A DNA stretch of 64,000 bases, from contig NZ_JFBL01000003.1 in the NCBI RefSeq assembly GCF_000597725.1, positions 124,001-188,000 of the forward strand, written 5' to 3'. Source of the DNA: Sulfurospirillum arcachonense DSM 9755 (GTDB lineage: Bacteria > Campylobacterota > Campylobacteria > Campylobacterales > Sulfurospirillaceae). Made by a program: the position numbers and the translations under genes. Below the pieces are notes generated by a model. It searched no databases. It was not told where the DNA came from and saw nothing but the letters and a program-made list of their open reading frames with translations. Below, in pieces: positions 14,983 through 24,083 of the stretch. How positions within the stretch are numbered: position 1 is the stretch's first letter; the number at the start of each line of letters is the position of its first letter.

Positions 14983-16353
14983 AATTTTAAAAGAAAAATC
15001 AGAGCCAACTCCAACTTCACTTTGTATATCTAAATCACTATTATGAAGGTTTAAAATGTACTTAACAAGTGCAAGCCCAAGTCCTATAGAGTTATCCCAA
15101 GATAGGGTATTTGAGCGATAGAATTTGTTTGTAACTTTTTCTATTTCATCAGGAGCTATTCCTATACCTGTATCTTTTACATGTAAAGTTCCATTTTCTA
15201 TTTCTATATGAATGTCACTGTGGGAGTATTTGACAGCATTGTCAATAAGATTTGTAATTACGAGTTCAATCATTGTTTTATCAGCATTGACAATATAGCT
15301 TTCACCTTTACATGTAAATTCTCTATCATTGTTATTATCTTTAAAACTACTGAGTATATCTTGCGTTAAATTATATAAATCAAATTTTGTGAGTTTTGGA
15401 GATAGATCACCATTTTCAAATTTTGTTGCTAGGGAAAGTCTATCTATCATGCTTGAAATTTTGTGAGAATTTTTTATGATTTTTTCTAAAAATCTCTCTT
15501 TTATACTGGTATTTGCGTTAGGATCATCCATAAGAGTTTGAGCATATCCTATCACTGAAGCTATAGGGTTTTTAAATTCATGACTGATTGCTGAGATGAT
15601 ATCGCTTCTTTGTTTACTTATAAGTTTTATTTTTGCTGTATATTTTCTTTTTTGTTTTGATCTTTTTTCAAGTATACGAGCGAGTTTTTCTATGTGAGAT
15701 TCTATTGTAAAAAATTCTTTTGCAAAAGAAGCATTTACAACTGCTTTAAAATTTTTATTAGAAATCTCATCGAGGGTATTTGTTACTTTACCTATCTCTT
15801 TTTCAATTTTTTGACTTAGTTTATAAAAAACATAAAGACCTAAAAAAATAGAAGAAGCAAAGATAATAGTAAGTTTGATCCACATATTGTAAAATTCTTG
15901 AGAAATAGAGTTTAACTTCATAGAAAGTCGTATGAAAATAGGTTGTTCTTTGTAGTAAGTTTGACTTGCTAAGTATAAAAAGTCAATACCTATTGTTTTT
16001 GAGTGACGTACGGCATAACCATCTTCATTGGCTCTTGAAAGTTTTATTTCTCTTCTATCACTATGGTTTTCCATCTCTTTTTTATCATAATCACTCTCAG
16101 CCAGAATGACACCATCATCGTCTATAACAGTAAGTCTGTTGTTTGTAGCTTTTTTTACACGTAAAGCAAATTCATCTAAATTTTTAATCAAAGGAAGTTG
16201 TGCTTTTACGAGTTCTACTTCTTTTTTTATAAAGTTTTTATACTGTTGGAGATTTATCTCTTTTACTGTAAAATAACTTACTGCTGTAGTAAGAAGTAGT
16301 GTAGTAACAAATATAAGTAAAAAGTTGATGATAAAATGTTGGTGAAGCTTCAC
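14968..16353 (-). CDS. phoR: Phosphate-responsive sensor histidine kinase
   Basis: About 461 residues. TM1 (~6-27), a periplasmic domain of ~130 residues, TM2 (~160-180), HAMP-like linker, HisKA dimerisation helix with phospho-acceptor His in AISHEFKNPIASV, and HATPase with N-box NLIDNAVKYS, G1 DTGIGIAPDE and G2 GLGLALVKYI. I chose the GTG whose GTGA overlaps the stop of phoB, giving tight coupling; an in-frame TTG lies eight codons earlier. Its place beside phoB, phoU, phoX and pst indicates the phosphate sensor, corresponding to PhoR or C. jejuni PhosS. Two palindromes code for LHVK and FTCK. Confidence 0.88.
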   Translation of the reverse strand: MKLHQHFIINFLLIFVTTLLLTTAVSYFTVKEINLQQYKNFIKKEVELVKAQLPLIKNLDEFALRVKKATNNRLTVIDDDGVILAESDYDKKEMENHSDRREIKLSRANEDGYAVRHSKTIGIDFLYLASQTYYKEQPIFIRLSMKLNSISQEFYNMWIKLTIIFASSIFLGLYVFYKLSQKIEKEIGKVTNTLDEISNKNFKAVVNASFAKEFFTIESHIEKLARILEKRSKQKRKYTAKIKLISKQRSDIISAISHEFKNPIASVIGYAQTLMDDPNANTSIKERFLEKIIKNSHKISSMIDRLSLATKFENGDLSPKLTKFDLYNLTQDILSSFKDNNNDREFTCKGESYIVNADKTMIELVITNLIDNAVKYSHSDIHIEIENGTLHVKDTGIGIAPDEIEKVTNKFYRSNTLSWDNSIGLGLALVKYILNLHNSDLDIQSEVGVGSDFSFKIETKL

Positions 16354-17012
16354 GAGATACTGTACCCCACACCCCAAACAGATTTAATGTACTCTTTAGA
16401 GCCATCGGGGTCAATTTTCTTTTTTAAGCGATTGACTGCAACATTAACTGTTTTATCTTGAAAAAATGTTTCATCTTTCCAAACATGAGTGAGGAGATAC
16501 TCTCGATTTAAAACGTTGTTTTTATTTTCTATGAGAGTTTTTAAAAGTTCAAATTCTAGCTTTGTTAAATCAATTTCTTTTTTATTTACATATACTTTTC
16601 GTGATTTATTATCTAGTAAAATATCTTTATGTTCTATGGTTTCAAGGCTTGTTGGGTTTGTTCTTTTTAAAATAGCTTTGATTCTAAGGATAAGTTCTTT
16701 TATGTTGTATGGTTTTGTAAGATAGTCATCACCACCACGCTCAAAACCTTCTTCTATATCTTCATCTTTGTCTTTTGCAGTAGCAAAAATCGTTGGGATA
16801 TTAATCCCAACTTCACGCAAGTTTTTTACAAACTCACTGCCTTCAATATTTGGTAGGTTTCTATCTACTATCATTAAATCAACTTTTTCTTCTTTTAAAA
16901 GTTTTTCAACATTTTTAGTAGATAAAAAACCGACTGTTTCAAATCCAGCTTTTTGTAAGTTATACTCTAAAAGTTCTAATAAATCTTCTTCATCTTCAAT
17001 TATAACTATCAT
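16350..17012 (-). CDS. phoB: Phosphate-regulon response regulator
   Basis: A 220-residue OmpR/PhoB-family regulator. The receiver domain has the E6/D7 acidic pocket, phospho-acceptor D50 (MIVDRNLP), T79 and K100 (LTKPYN). The C-terminal winged helix ends in KSVWGVGYSIS. It should bind the Pho-box-like sites found at five promoters in this island. It follows phoU by nine bases and overlaps phoR by four bases, so phoU-phoB-phoR are one operon. It corresponds in role to PhosR of C. jejuni. Confidence 0.92.
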   Translation of the reverse strand: MIVIIEDEEDLLELLEYNLQKAGFETVGFLSTKNVEKLLKEEKVDLMIVDRNLPNIEGSEFVKNLREVGINIPTIFATAKDKDEDIEEGFERGGDDYLTKPYNIKELILRIKAILKRTNPTSLETIEHKDILLDNKSRKVYVNKKEIDLTKLEFELLKTLIENKNNVLNREYLLTHVWKDETFFQDKTVNVAVNRLKKKIDPDGSKEYIKSVWGVGYSIS

Positions 17013-20998: not shown

Positions 20999-21010
20999 TT
21001 TCCATATAAA

Positions 21011-21045
21011 AGGCTCAAACTTTATCCAATAGTTTAAGCCTTTTT
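21011..21045 (+). terminator. Intrinsic terminator
   Basis: AGGCTCAAACT (21011-21021) pairs with AGTTTAAGCCT (21031-21041), one mismatch, followed by a T-run. It ends the ADP-ribosylglycohydrolase gene. Confidence 0.85.
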
Positions 21046-21101
21046 ACTACACAAATACTACACATTTCATAAATAATTACTACACACTTAGCCGTTATAA
21101 T
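21044..21101 (+). promoter_or_regulatory. Phased TACTACACA operator and -10 box of the bufferin operon
   Basis: TACTACACA occurs at 21045, 21056 and 21078, i.e. on an 11-base grid with the third unit degenerate (TTCATAAATAA). TATAAT follows at 21096-21101. Direct repeats every 11 bases are the layout bound by PhoB/OmpR-family dimers, and the last copy covers the -35 region as for an activator. Confidence 0.7.
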
Positions 21102-21131
21102 TTCAGTACAAATCAAAACAAGGAAAGAAAG

Positions 21132-21410
21132 ATGAAGACAGGAAATAAGCTAAAATTAGCAGGAATTCTTTTAGGAACAACACTTATTACAGCAACTGCA
21201 GCAGTAGCTGGATCAGGTGATGGTAAATGTGGAGCAGGAAGTTGTGGTGATAAAAAAGTAAAATCTGAAAAGATGATGACTAAAGCTAAAGATGGTAAAT
21301 GTGGAGCAGGAAGTTGTGGTGACAAAAAAGCAATGACTAAAGAAGCAAAAAAAATGAAAAGTGCTAGTAAAAGTGCCGATGCAAAATGTGGCGCTGGTAA
21401 ATGCGGCTAG
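21132..21410 (+). CDS. bufA: Bufferin-type RiPP metallophore precursor (BufA/HvfA-like)
   Basis: A 92-residue peptide. The first ~27 residues are a signal sequence (LAGILLGTTLITATAAVAG); the rest carries three near-identical cysteine modules: DGKCGAGSCGDKK twice, then DAKCGAGKCG at the very C-terminus, giving six Cys, with Lys/Ala spacers between. Small peptides with GKCG-type modules next to an MNIO enzyme are bufferins or HvfA-like products, in which Cys is converted to copper-binding heterocycles; export follows. It is first in bufA-bufB-bufC-doxX, has GGAAAG before the ATG, and has a distinctive operator upstream. Copper as ligand is inferred from relatives. Confidence 0.88.
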   Translation: MKTGNKLKLAGILLGTTLITATAAVAGSGDGKCGAGSCGDKKVKSEKMMTKAKDGKCGAGSCGDKKAMTKEAKKMKSASKSADAKCGAGKCG

Positions 21411-21426
21411 TATTTGAGGTAAAGTT

Positions 21427-22245
21427 ATGAACAACATAAATGGATTAGGCTTAGGGCTTAGAAGAGATTTTTTACAAGAGATTGATGCTGATGGATTTTT
21501 ACCTGATTGGTGGGAAATTGCACCTGAAAATTGGTTTGATATTCCATTTCATCATAGAGAAAAATTTGAAGAAGTGATATCTTTGCGACCAGTAGTTGCT
21601 CATGGCTTATCTTTATCAATAGGTTCACATGAACCTATTGATAAAAAGTTTTTAAAACAGATGAAAAGTTTTTTAGATAGGTACAAAATAGAAGACTATT
21701 CAGATCATATTAGTTTTACTTCACTTTTGGGTTCACAAACTTATGATTTATTGCCTCTTAGTATGACTAAAAAAAGTATAGAGCATACAAGTGATAAGAT
21801 AAAAAGAGTGATGGATTATATGCAAAGAGAGCTTATTTTGGAAAATGCAACATATTATTATGTTCCTGATTCTGATATGAGAGAAGTTGAGTTTATAAAT
21901 GAGCTTATGGAAAAATCAGGAGCAAAATTGCTTTTAGATGTAAATAATATTTATGTAAATGCGCAAAATCATGGATTTGATGCACATGAGTTTTTAAATG
22001 AACTAGATGTAAGTAAAGCAGCATATATTCATGTTGCTGGACATTATGAAGATGAAGAGTTAGGTATGATTATAGACTCTCATGGAATGCCTGTCAAACA
22101 AGAAGTATGGGATTTTTTAGGTGATACTTTAAAAAAAGTGGATATTCCTGTAATGATAGAGAGAGATAACAATATACCTCAATACTCTGTCATGGAAAAA
22201 GAGTATAAAATACTCAAAAAGGTAGTTAAAAATGCGAGAATTTAA
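21427..22245 (+). CDS. bufB: MNIO (DUF692) RiPP-modifying iron enzyme BufB
   Basis: A 272-residue TIM-barrel multinuclear non-haem iron oxidase. Likely iron ligands lie in AHGLS (H59), SDHISF (H94), LENA (E139), LLDVNN (D171, N174), HVAGH (H206), DSHG (D217, H219) and MIERD (E245). MNIO enzymes install thiooxazole or oxazolone/thioamide groups on cysteines of the partner peptide. It is separated by 16 bases from bufA and overlaps bufC by 14 bases, so the products are made together. Length and the GLGLRRDF start are typical. Confidence 0.93.
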   Translation: MNNINGLGLGLRRDFLQEIDADGFLPDWWEIAPENWFDIPFHHREKFEEVISLRPVVAHGLSLSIGSHEPIDKKFLKQMKSFLDRYKIEDYSDHISFTSLLGSQTYDLLPLSMTKKSIEHTSDKIKRVMDYMQRELILENATYYYVPDSDMREVEFINELMEKSGAKLLLDVNNIYVNAQNHGFDAHEFLNELDVSKAAYIHVAGHYEDEELGMIIDSHGMPVKQEVWDFLGDTLKKVDIPVMIERDNNIPQYSVMEKEYKILKKVVKNARI

Positions 22246-22921
22246 AGCACAAAAAAAGCTTATTGATATTGCTTTTGAAAATGCCAAACTACCGAAAAAT
22301 CACCAAGGCTATAAGATATATAAAGCTTTGGTATTTCATAGATTTTTTGAAGTCTTAAGTAATGCTTATCCTATATTTTATGAAGAAGTGGATAAAAAGA
22401 GATTTGAAAAAATTATTTATGAATTTATGAGGTATGGTGCTAAGAGTGAAGTGATGTGGAAGTTACCCAATGAATTTAGGACTTTTGTAAAAAAACACAA
22501 GAAGTTCCAAGAAATTCCTTATGTGAATGAGCTTTTATGGTTTGAGTGGGTTGAAGTAGCATTGATGATGAGAAATTACAAAAGCCAAAAAGAAAAAAAG
22601 TTTTCTTATTCTAAAAATTATAAATTAAACTCTAGTGTACTTTTAAAAAAGTTAGACTATAAGGTCTTTGAGAAAGAAAGCTATGATAAAAAAGGTGAGT
22701 ATTATCTTTTAGCATATTATGATTTTAATGATTTGCAAGTCTATTATAGAGAGATTTCTTTACCAATGTATATGTTTTTAAAAGAGTTAAACAAAAATGG
22801 CTTAAATCAAGCGATTAATTTGATAGCAAAAAAAAGCAAACAAACGAAAAAAGAAGTAAAAGAGTTTTTTAAAGCTTCATTAGAAGAGTTAATAAACCTA
22901 AGAATTTTAAAAAGGATCTGA
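22232..22921 (+). CDS. bufC: BufC/HvfC-like MNIO partner protein (DUF2063)
   Basis: A 229-residue protein. The N-terminal ~110 residues show the DUF2063 pattern: helical, with HRFFEVLSNAYPIFYEEV and a following FMRYGAKSE segment. A C-terminal ~100-residue domain (~150-229) has a winged-helix-like tail. Partner proteins of this class bind the precursor peptide and present it to the MNIO enzyme. The start overlaps bufB, and DoxX follows after one base. Similarity is weaker than for bufB, but gene order makes the assignment secure. Confidence 0.85.
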   Translation: MREFKAQKKLIDIAFENAKLPKNHQGYKIYKALVFHRFFEVLSNAYPIFYEEVDKKRFEKIIYEFMRYGAKSEVMWKLPNEFRTFVKKHKKFQEIPYVNELLWFEWVEVALMMRNYKSQKEKKFSYSKNYKLNSSVLLKKLDYKVFEKESYDKKGEYYLLAYYDFNDLQVYYREISLPMYMFLKELNKNGLNQAINLIAKKSKQTKKEVKEFFKASLEELINLRILKRI

Positions 22922-22922
22922 G

Positions 22923-23357
22923 ATGTCAATGAAAAATTGTTATTTCAAAGTAGAAAAAATCACAGATAATTTTCAAAGTATTGCATTATTGTTTGCAAGA
23001 CTAACTATAGCGTATGGTTTTTTTGAACCAGCTATGAAAAAGTGGCAAGGTATGGATAATGTAGTGGCATGGTTTGGTTCAATGGGAATTCCTTTTCCTT
23101 CCCTAAACGCTTATATGGCAGCTTCTACGGAAACTTTAGGAGTAGTTTTACTTACGTTTGGATTGTTTACGAGACTTATATCTATACCACTTATAGTAAT
23201 TATGTTAGTAGCTATATTTTTAGTGCATTTTCAAAATGGTTTTAGTGCAGCAGCAAATGGATTTGAAATACCATTTTATTATATGTTGTTTTTGATGATT
23301 TTTACATCTTTTGGAGCAGGTAAGATAAGTTTGGATAATTTTTTCTTTAAAAAGTAG
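22923..23357 (+). CDS. DoxX-family membrane protein of the bufferin operon
   Basis: A 144-residue inner-membrane protein with four predicted helices, starting LLFARLTIAYGFFEPAMKKW, typical of DoxX/BufD/HvfD. DoxX proteins accompany many MNIO operons; proposed roles are electron supply from the quinone pool or handling of the metal-peptide complex, neither proven here. It is the last gene of the operon and ends before a clear shared terminator. GAG lies just before the ATG. Confidence 0.88.
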   Translation: MSMKNCYFKVEKITDNFQSIALLFARLTIAYGFFEPAMKKWQGMDNVVAWFGSMGIPFPSLNAYMAASTETLGVVLLTFGLFTRLISIPLIVIMLVAIFLVHFQNGFSAAANGFEIPFYYMLFLMIFTSFGAGKISLDNFFFKK

Positions 23358-23364
23358 GAGAGTT

Positions 23365-23383
23365 GGGAGTGAAAGTCACTCCC
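23365..23383. terminator. Bidirectional terminator
   Basis: GGGAGTGA (23365-23372) and TCACTCCC (23376-23383), a perfect 8-bp stem between the convergent DoxX and histone-H1-like genes. Confidence 0.8.
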
Positions 23384-23390
23384 TCTTAGA

Positions 23391-23591
23391 TTATGCAGCT
23401 TTTTTAATTACTTTTTTAGCAACTTTTTTAGCAACTTTTTTTGCAGTTGGTTTTGCTTTAGTAACAGCTTTAGTAACTTTTTTTAGTACTTTATCAGCAC
23501 ATTTTTTAGTTATAACTTTTTTAGATACAGCTTTTTTTGTAGCTTTCTTAGCAACTTTTGATACAGCTTTCTTCTTTAGAACTTTAGACAT
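23391..23591 (-). CDS. Histone H1-like Lys/Ala-rich DNA-binding peptide
   Basis: A 66-residue peptide with 27 lysines, many Ala/Val, one Asp, no Glu or aromatic residues, and one Cys (C31). Its KKVAKKVAKKV pattern is that of histone-H1-like tails (Hc1, AlgP type) that coat or condense DNA. Composition could in principle be a false ORF, but a GGGG-containing RBS region (AAAAGGGGAC) lies ahead of the ATG and stop/terminator placement is sensible. It is divergent from a small regulator that also has a Lys-rich tail. It probably acts in the nucleoid; the trigger is unknown. Confidence 0.7.
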   Translation of the reverse strand: MSKVLKKKAVSKVAKKATKKAVSKKVITKKCADKVLKKVTKAVTKAKPTAKKVAKKVAKKVIKKAA

Positions 23592-23718
23592 GTTATGTCC
23601 CCTTTTAATTTAATTTTTAATTACTAATAGTAATAAATTATAGTAATTGTATACTTTTTATTCTTTTTTGTCAAGAAATAAGTTATAATTATAAGAGATT
23701 ATGGTGAAGGATGAGGAA

Positions 23719-24003
23719 ATGACTTTTATAGAGTTTAAAAAATATTTATTAGAGGCAGAAATAACATTGCCTAAATTTAGTAAATTAATTAAAGTAAGTG
23801 AAAAAAATATTCAATCGTATAAGAAAAAAGGTGAAGTTCCAAATACTATAGCTGTTATAGTAAAAAGTTTTTCAAAAATGCATGAAGTTGGTATTGATTA
23901 CCGTAGTAGCATAGAAGAATTAGAACTTGTTGCAAAAGTAAAAAAAGGTGCAGGATTTGCAAAAAAAGCTGAAAAAGTTAAAAAAGAAGAGAAAGCCTTT
24001 TAA
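23719..24003 (+). CDS. Small XRE-like DNA-binding protein
   Basis: About 94 residues. The N-terminal ~60 residues form a helix-turn-helix-like fold (FKKYLLEAEITLPKFSKLIKVSEKNIQSYKKKGEVP, in two blocks), resembling phage/XRE regulators; the C-terminus is a Lys/Ala-rich tail. The ATG at 23719 is preferred over 23701 because a TATAAT box at 23684-23689 would leave almost no leader for the earlier start, and AAGGA sits eight bases before 23719. Divergent to the H1-like peptide, possibly its regulator. Function is unknown. Confidence 0.65.
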   Translation: MTFIEFKKYLLEAEITLPKFSKLIKVSEKNIQSYKKKGEVPNTIAVIVKSFSKMHEVGIDYRSSIEELELVAKVKKGAGFAKKAEKVKKEEKAF

Positions 24004-24016
24004 CGTATACATGTAG

Positions 24017-24083
24017 ACTACACATAAAAATACTATAATAGAATTCAATAAAGACAGAACTTATAAGAATGTGTTTCTTATAA
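24017..24083 (+). promoter_or_regulatory. Promoter region of the two-component operon with shared ACTACACA element
   Basis: ACTACACA at 24017-24024 and TATAAT at 24034-24039 have the same 17-base offset as in the bufA promoter. Downstream, TTATAAGAA (24061-24069) and TTCTTATAA (24075-24083) form a perfect 9-bp dyad touching the AAAGGA RBS. Confidence 0.65.

Follow-up and report, generated by a model that had tools for sequence, protein, structure and literature searches.

The bufferin locus and its tandem repeat

The window, a 64,000-nt stretch of the genome of Sulfurospirillum arcachonense DSM 9755, carries a predicted operon for a bufferin, i.e. a metallophore of the ribosomally synthesized and post-translationally modified peptide (RiPP) type, followed on the same strand by the genes for a response regulator (RR) and a sensor histidine kinase (HK) (Table 1). 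The subject of this analysis is a tandem repeat of TAMACA units shared by the bufA and regulator promoters, together with its candidate regulator, the RR-HK two-component system (TCS). The BufA precursor contains the repeated KCGxxxCG motif of the EGKCG/HvfA-like bufferins (as KCGAGSCG and KCGAGKCG) and lies outside the HvfA equivalog proper (NF050188, 20.3 bits vs. a cut-off of 95); the MNIO enzyme and the DUF2063 partner expected of a bufferin cluster are both encoded next to it. A scan of the open reading frames (ORFs) between 17 and 30 kb and of the operon neighbors identified no adjacent extracytoplasmic function (ECF) sigma factor or NrsF-type anti-sigma factor, and the TCS is found there instead.

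Exact copies of TACTACACA occupy offsets 0, 11 and 33 of an 11-nt grid upstream of bufA, and the vacant grid position at 21067 is filled by the degenerate CATAAATAA, so that the four positions may offer room for two regulator dimers. At the regulator promoter, ACTACACA is preceded at the same pitch by the degenerate TATACATG. Counted from the start of ACTACACA (21079 and 24017), TATAAT begins 17 nt further on at both promoters, which leaves 9 nt between the unit and the box, and both -10 boxes are perfect. The preliminary description of this DNA, which reported the three gridded copies of TACTACACA, the recurrence of ACTACACA at 24017 and the common 17-nt distance, was accurate in all these respects, the distance being one from start to start. 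The bare 9-mer, allowing for 1 mismatch, shows no excess over chance in the window (17 found, 17.0 expected), hence it is the tandem arrangement, together with the constant spacing to the -10 box and the conservation, that carries the signal. Only two places in the genome match ACTACACA-N3-ACTACACA with no more than 1 mismatch, the promoters of bufA and of a YgaP-like membrane protein; this is the search for pairs that the preliminary description had proposed. The promoter of a YceI protein in the same genome exhibits an exact ACTAMACA-N3-ACTACAYA, and in all three promoters the gap between the element and the TATAAT-like box is 9 nt. A looser scan of the genome (3 mismatches) was set aside, as its matches fell mostly within coding genes.

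Two further features of the locus were noted. A terminator-like hairpin, AAAAGGCT...AAGCCTTTTT (21010-21046), closes the ADP-ribosylglycohydrolase gene, and the first copy of TACTACACA comes straight after it. Between doxX and the regulator gene lie a Lys/Ala-rich ORF of 66 aa (23391-23591, minus strand) and a 100-aa ORF of no known family (23701-24003, plus strand); relatives of the latter (64-66% identity) are found within about 5 kb of the orthologous TCS in several Arcobacteraceae loci.

Table 1. Genes and promoter elements of the bufferin/TCS locus (window coordinates)
Feature	Position	Strand	Evidence or remark
bufA, bufferin-type (EGKCG/HvfA-like) RiPP metallophore precursor, 92 aa	21132..21410	+	NCBIfam NF050137, 28.2 bits (cut-off 19.5)
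bufB, MNIO (DUF692) peptide-modifying enzyme	21427..22245	+	Pfam PF05114, 288.6 bits
bufC, DUF2063/HvfC-like partner protein	22232..22921	+	PF09836, 31.6 bits (cut-off 27.2); NF050145, 68 bits
DoxX/HvfX-family membrane protein	22923..23357	+	PF07681; NF050144, 123.9 bits (cut-off 80)
OmpR/PhoB-family RR (receiver + winged helix), 218 aa	24094..24750	+	PF00072, PF00486
Sensor HK, small periplasmic domain, 388 aa	24731..25897	+	PF00512 just below cut-off; PF02518
Tandem unit 1, TACTACACA	21045..21053	+	directly after the terminator-like hairpin of the upstream gene; pair kept before bufA in relatives
Tandem unit 2, TACTACACA	21056..21064	+	11 nt past unit 1
Degenerate unit 3, CATAAATAA	21067..21075	+	on the 11-nt grid; 2 mismatches to the pattern
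Unit 4, TACTACACA, promoter-proximal	21078..21086	+	9 nt before TATAAT
-10 box TATAAT, bufA promoter	21096..21101	+	read from sequence
Degenerate distal unit, TATACATG, regulator promoter	24006..24013	+	11 nt before 24017
Proximal unit, ACTACACA, regulator promoter	24017..24024	+	9 nt before TATAAT; orthologous site in 41/70 distinct relatives
-10 box TATAAT, regulator promoter	24034..24039	+	read from sequence

Conservation of the element and its predicted targets

Regulator orthologs were collected from 77 loci of Sulfurospirillum, Sulfurovum and Arcobacteraceae, which gave 70 distinct 150-nt upstream stretches (G- and L-numbers below denote genomes and loci, respectively; G000 is the genome of the window). 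The pattern TAMACA-N5-TAMACA-N9-TANNAT, with at most 1 mismatch, was identified in 41 of them, compared to a mean of 0.04 and a maximum of 1 in shuffled sequences. Both spacings are sharply defined: 31 exact matches were found with N5 between the units and none with other gaps, and 34 with N9 before TATAAT as compared to at most one with any other distance. The element is present even where no bufferin is encoded nearby, hence the TAMACA tandem is likely to be an autoregulatory site of the regulator, on evidence independent of the bufferin. The distal unit is better preserved in G004/G005 (as TAAACG) than in the window. Clustering of gene neighborhoods in Arcobacteraceae and Sulfurovum revealed no conserved neighbor beyond lineage-specific housekeeping synteny. 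In one genus (g5), a gene for an 83-aa membrane protein precedes the regulator gene in L080, L082 and L165 and lies near it in L168; in the L080 and L082 promoters of this gene the gap from the element to TATAAT is 7 nt and not 9.

The bufferin operons provide a second line of evidence. All 8 bufB-carrying genomes in the family of the window possess the orthologous TCS (Fisher P = 0.013). In six of them (G001, G003, G004, G006, G009, G033) the TCS lies 3' of the buf genes on the same strand, directly except for a gap of about 1 kb in G001; in the seventh, that of the window, two small genes intervene, and in the eighth (G013) the TCS and the buf genes are found on different contigs. Thus, the RR-HK pair, which the preliminary description regarded as orphan-looking, is no orphan and usually continues the bufABC-doxX operon in bufferin-bearing relatives. 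The element precedes bufA in G000, G001, G003, G004, G006, G009, G013, G033 and L161, with the 9-nt gap at every bufA promoter read in these family genomes, and it is present in all clearly orthologous bufABC operons for which the promoter was read. The four-position layout (11+22), including the degenerate third position, is common to the window, G009, G013 and L161. Short bufA-like precursor genes adjoining the TCS in G016, G030 and G034 also carry the element, and in the Poseidonibacter-type G066, G067 and G072 bufA is not linked to the TCS, yet it is preceded by CTACACACTTACTACACA with a 9-nt gap to an AT-rich -10 region. Absence of the element upstream of orthologous operons would have spoken against the preliminary description; it is present, far outside the genus, and its occurrence at orthologous promoters supports the prediction that the neighboring regulator controls itself and the bufferin operon through a shared element. 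In another family (L245 and L246, from G058 and G039) TTGCACA-type units with an 11-nt pitch stand before bufA, the last of them 9 nt from a -10 box, and the kinase gene at a distance of about 2-4 kb is a different one, possibly reflecting co-divergence of the regulator and its unit.

Beyond these two promoters, the element precedes genes for MsrA(-Trx-MsrB), periplasmic MsrA, MsrP, YceI, DoxX, cytochrome P460-like and YgaP-like membrane proteins, as well as DUF302, DUF1223, thioredoxin-fold, Dsb-like, MlaA, SoxY and HMA proteins. The P460-like gene was found behind matches in seven genomes, all of one genus. The families were assigned with Pfam and NCBIfam (MsrP with 422 bits vs. a cut-off of 207; MsrA, YceI, P460, DoxX, MlaA). 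Matches with 1-2 mismatches in single genomes are weak, and the reliable core consists of the recurring MsrA, YceI, P460, YgaP-like, bufA and regulator genes, i.e. by their predicted functions, periplasmic protein repair and metal binding. In four loci of the Sulfurospirillum type (L175, L176, L178, L179), the MsrP gene also lies 3' of that for the kinase. The recurrent targets suggest a regulon for periplasmic methionine/thiol oxidation and copper stress, and the common element before the regulator, bufferin and periplasmic repair genes across much of Campylobacterota predicts one periplasmic stress response. The preliminary description saw in the TCS and the operon a complete stress-sensing and buffering system; the predicted coupling of the two stands, but the scope is likely to be wider, as redox genes and genes for the periplasmic repair of methionine sulfoxide have the element in front of them too.

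Several other genes were noted among the matches. In genus g5 (e.g. L104, L108, L127, L135), the gene for a secreted cytochrome P460-like CxxCH protein is transcribed, in most of seven genomes, from a predicted promoter with a strongly conserved ACTACACAATAACTTAACA; G004 has a fragment of P460, with an element of 2 mismatches, directly upstream of bufA. In three genera (G000, contig C8:102843; L110; L145) the element is associated with a small 60-aa protein of the MC(M/V)M type that belongs to no known family, with an lpxB-like gene 3' of it in G000 and G006.

The two-component system, its proposed mechanism and alternative explanations

The regulator is an ordinary member of the OmpR family (PF00072: 90.9 bits, PF00486: 74.3 bits, both above cut-off). 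The phospho-acceptor D51 is invariant among 19 orthologs, as are D8, D9 and K101, and the recognition helix A-T-[IL]-R-V-Y-I-[KR]-N-L is nearly so. It scores far below the equivalogs of PhoB (TIGR02154: 150.9 vs. a cut-off of 296.2) and of CusR/CopR (TIGR01387: 116.9 vs. 279.2; NF007346: 104.3 vs. 420). The window encodes another regulator (16350-17012), with PhoB as its closest match; it was left aside, and its divergent recognition helix argues against it.

The orthologous kinases form a clear group (about 49-72% identity in the family) that extends beyond the family. The sensor domain is predicted to consist of a long helix followed by a small β-sheet (predicted local distance difference test, pLDDT, 78; 19 sequences), and the hits of a fold search with the model of the kinase mainly concerned the shared cytoplasmic core, with no informative relative of the sensor domain. 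The preliminary description envisaged a His-containing periplasmic sensor, which the alignment does not bear out: His117 is found in just 22 of 72 orthologs, and the conserved residues are Cys47 (66/72) and several methionines (Met51, Met56 and Met67, in 46-51 of 72). This pattern favors sensing of Cu(I) or of an oxidant via sulfur. The kinases of the Sulfurospirillum group proper are without the conserved Cys.

With high confidence, we regard the RR-HK pair at 24.1-25.9 kb as probably dedicated to the control of the bufferin operon and of its own genes. According to the proposed mechanism, the kinase would sense a periplasmic disturbance, most likely Met/Cys oxidation or copper, via Cys47 and the conserved Met residues, and would phosphorylate the regulator, which would then bind as head-to-tail dimers to the TAMACA units spaced by 11 nt. 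Since the last unit ends 9 nt before TATAAT, in the -35 zone, the regulator could recruit the sigma-70 polymerase there, as PhoB does, and bufABC-doxX and the regulator's own genes would be switched on together. In relatives with the RR-HK genes directly after the buf genes, activation of bufA would raise the level of the regulator too. The bufferin would then be one branch of a broader periplasmic regulon for metals and redox repair, as suggested by the shared element before the repair genes. We infer the binding of the regulator, activation rather than repression, and the identity of the signal from this arrangement.

Perhaps the regulator is correctly identified, and the response is specifically to copper excess, with the repair genes contributing to copper tolerance, as does the CusSR-controlled MsrPQ of E. 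coli? In favor of this, bufferins promote growth when copper is in excess (PMC12452194), copper induces MsrPQ of E. coli via CusSR (PMC9302797), and DoxX/HvfX, HMA protein and multicopper oxidase genes lie downstream of matches in single genomes. However, most of the recurrent targets are redox-repair proteins, the sensor has no conserved His, and where the orthologous TCS occurs, the genes seen under the element included no Cus-like efflux gene. We regard a copper-only response as a serious, if somewhat improbable, possibility.

It is quite unlikely that the element is bound by a paralogous OmpR-family regulator (e.g. the one on contig C8 of G000, about 43% identical) or by a CusR-like regulator, the neighboring pair being a bystander or a second input. 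The paralogs do have a stretch of the recognition helix in common (RTYIKNLR), and in G009, G044 and G052 the genes of other regulators are found next to similar repeats, CTMCACA-N4-CTACACA. Against this, the element sits at the promoter of the neighboring-pair regulator in dozens of genomes and is missing upstream of the C8 paralog, and those genomes of the family that lack the pair have almost no elements, although most of them retain kinases that are about 30% identical, as is the C8 paralog's kinase level of identity. As a separate observation, CTMCACA-N4-CTACACA-N9-(-10) is found upstream of genes for Cus-like efflux and for FixH/YtkA-like and CopZ-like proteins in G037, G040, G044 and G052 (L090, L119, L120, L121, L124), which suggests a related copper regulator with a near-identical unit.

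In the family of the window the motif is matched 49 times in 23 TCS-positive genomes vs. 4 times in 14 TCS-negative ones (P = 3e-5), which speaks for the neighboring TCS, if in a comparison that ignores the relatedness of the genomes. The assignment also has its weak points. The distal unit before the regulator of the window is degenerate (4/6), and about 40% of the regulator upstream regions exhibit no recognizable element, in part because the regulator is co-transcribed with the buf genes. The bufferin-independent targets vary between lineages. Related paralogous regulators seem to use similar units, to judge from the CTMCACA repeats close to genes for Cus-like copper efflux in other families, and cross-talk with them is possible.

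Counts of the motif against its reversed pattern are 74 vs. 18 (60 relatives and the window's own genome) and 86 vs. 5 (20 Sulfurovum/Arcobacteraceae genomes); matches to TACTCATCAATTAAACA in G026, G007, G008 and G030 were set aside, as they are nearly identical, with as many as 6 copies in one genome, and probably represent a repeated element. That the repeat reflects chance or the structure of an AT-rich promoter (e.g. an extended A/T-phased sigma-70 promoter) with no dedicated regulator, as the chance frequency of the single 9-mer in the window might imply, is hardly credible in view of the exact pitch and -10 distance across families, the excess over reversed and shuffled controls and the coherent downstream functions.

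Relation to known systems

No description of the link between bufferins and a TCS was found in the open-access literature searched; the kind of system is known, while the regulon and its bufferin link appear undescribed there. Bufferins are recently recognized copper-binding peptides, for which the regulator known so far is an ECF sigma factor. On balance, we tend to believe that Campylobacterota possess a phylum-wide, undescribed two-component regulon comprising copper-buffering RiPPs and methionine-sulfoxide/thiol repair, with a Cys/Met-type sensor, in the place held by SigF in Caulobacter, the two unrelated regulators being convergent. A conserved TCS with a readable DNA code would provide a regulator for the whole phylum, with targets predictable genome by genome, and would place bufferins within the physiology of periplasmic protein repair.

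In the class II architecture of PhoB, direct repeats occur every 11 nt, the last one about 10 nt upstream of the -10 box, replacing the -35 box. The system described here resembles PhoB/OmpR class II activation in its OmpR-family regulator, the 11-nt direct repeats and the repeat near the -10 box; it differs in the unit (TAMACA vs. the pho-box CTGTCA) and in the protein, which is far under the PhoB equivalog cut-off.

Among the OmpR-type systems of the same phylum, CrdRS responds to copper and nitrosative stress and DccR, of the DccRS system, activates a small set of periplasmic and membrane proteins (PMC9449129). In E. coli, HprSR (YedVW) and CusSR control the periplasmic methionine-sulfoxide repair system MsrPQ in response to hypochlorous acid (HOCl) and copper, and CusR and HprR share the box CATTACAAAATTGTAATG, an inverted repeat (PMC9302797). 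The system is alike in its two-component type, and its kinase core matches the structures of CusS and HprS. However, it uses a direct TAMACA repeat that does not conform to the palindromic CusR/HprR box, and the periplasmic part of its kinase bears Cys and Met residues.

The genes follow the order of the bufferin/HvfABC-X clusters, with the precursor first, then the MNIO enzyme, the DUF2063 partner and DoxX. Sigma factors in the vicinity of bufferins are reported in a 2025 survey of MNIO clusters, the main text of which makes no mention of two-component systems. Together with CusSR/HprSR, the nearest functional parallel is SigF-NrsF from Caulobacter, where, under metal stress, a single regulator governs both YedY/MsrP and operons for bufferins, with the order DUF2282-DUF692-DUF2063-DoxX (PMC3511200). 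The target set of bufferins and MsrP is common to both, while Caulobacter employs an ECF sigma factor and DUF2282-type precursors, and the locus described here a two-component system and an EGKCG/HvfA-type precursor.

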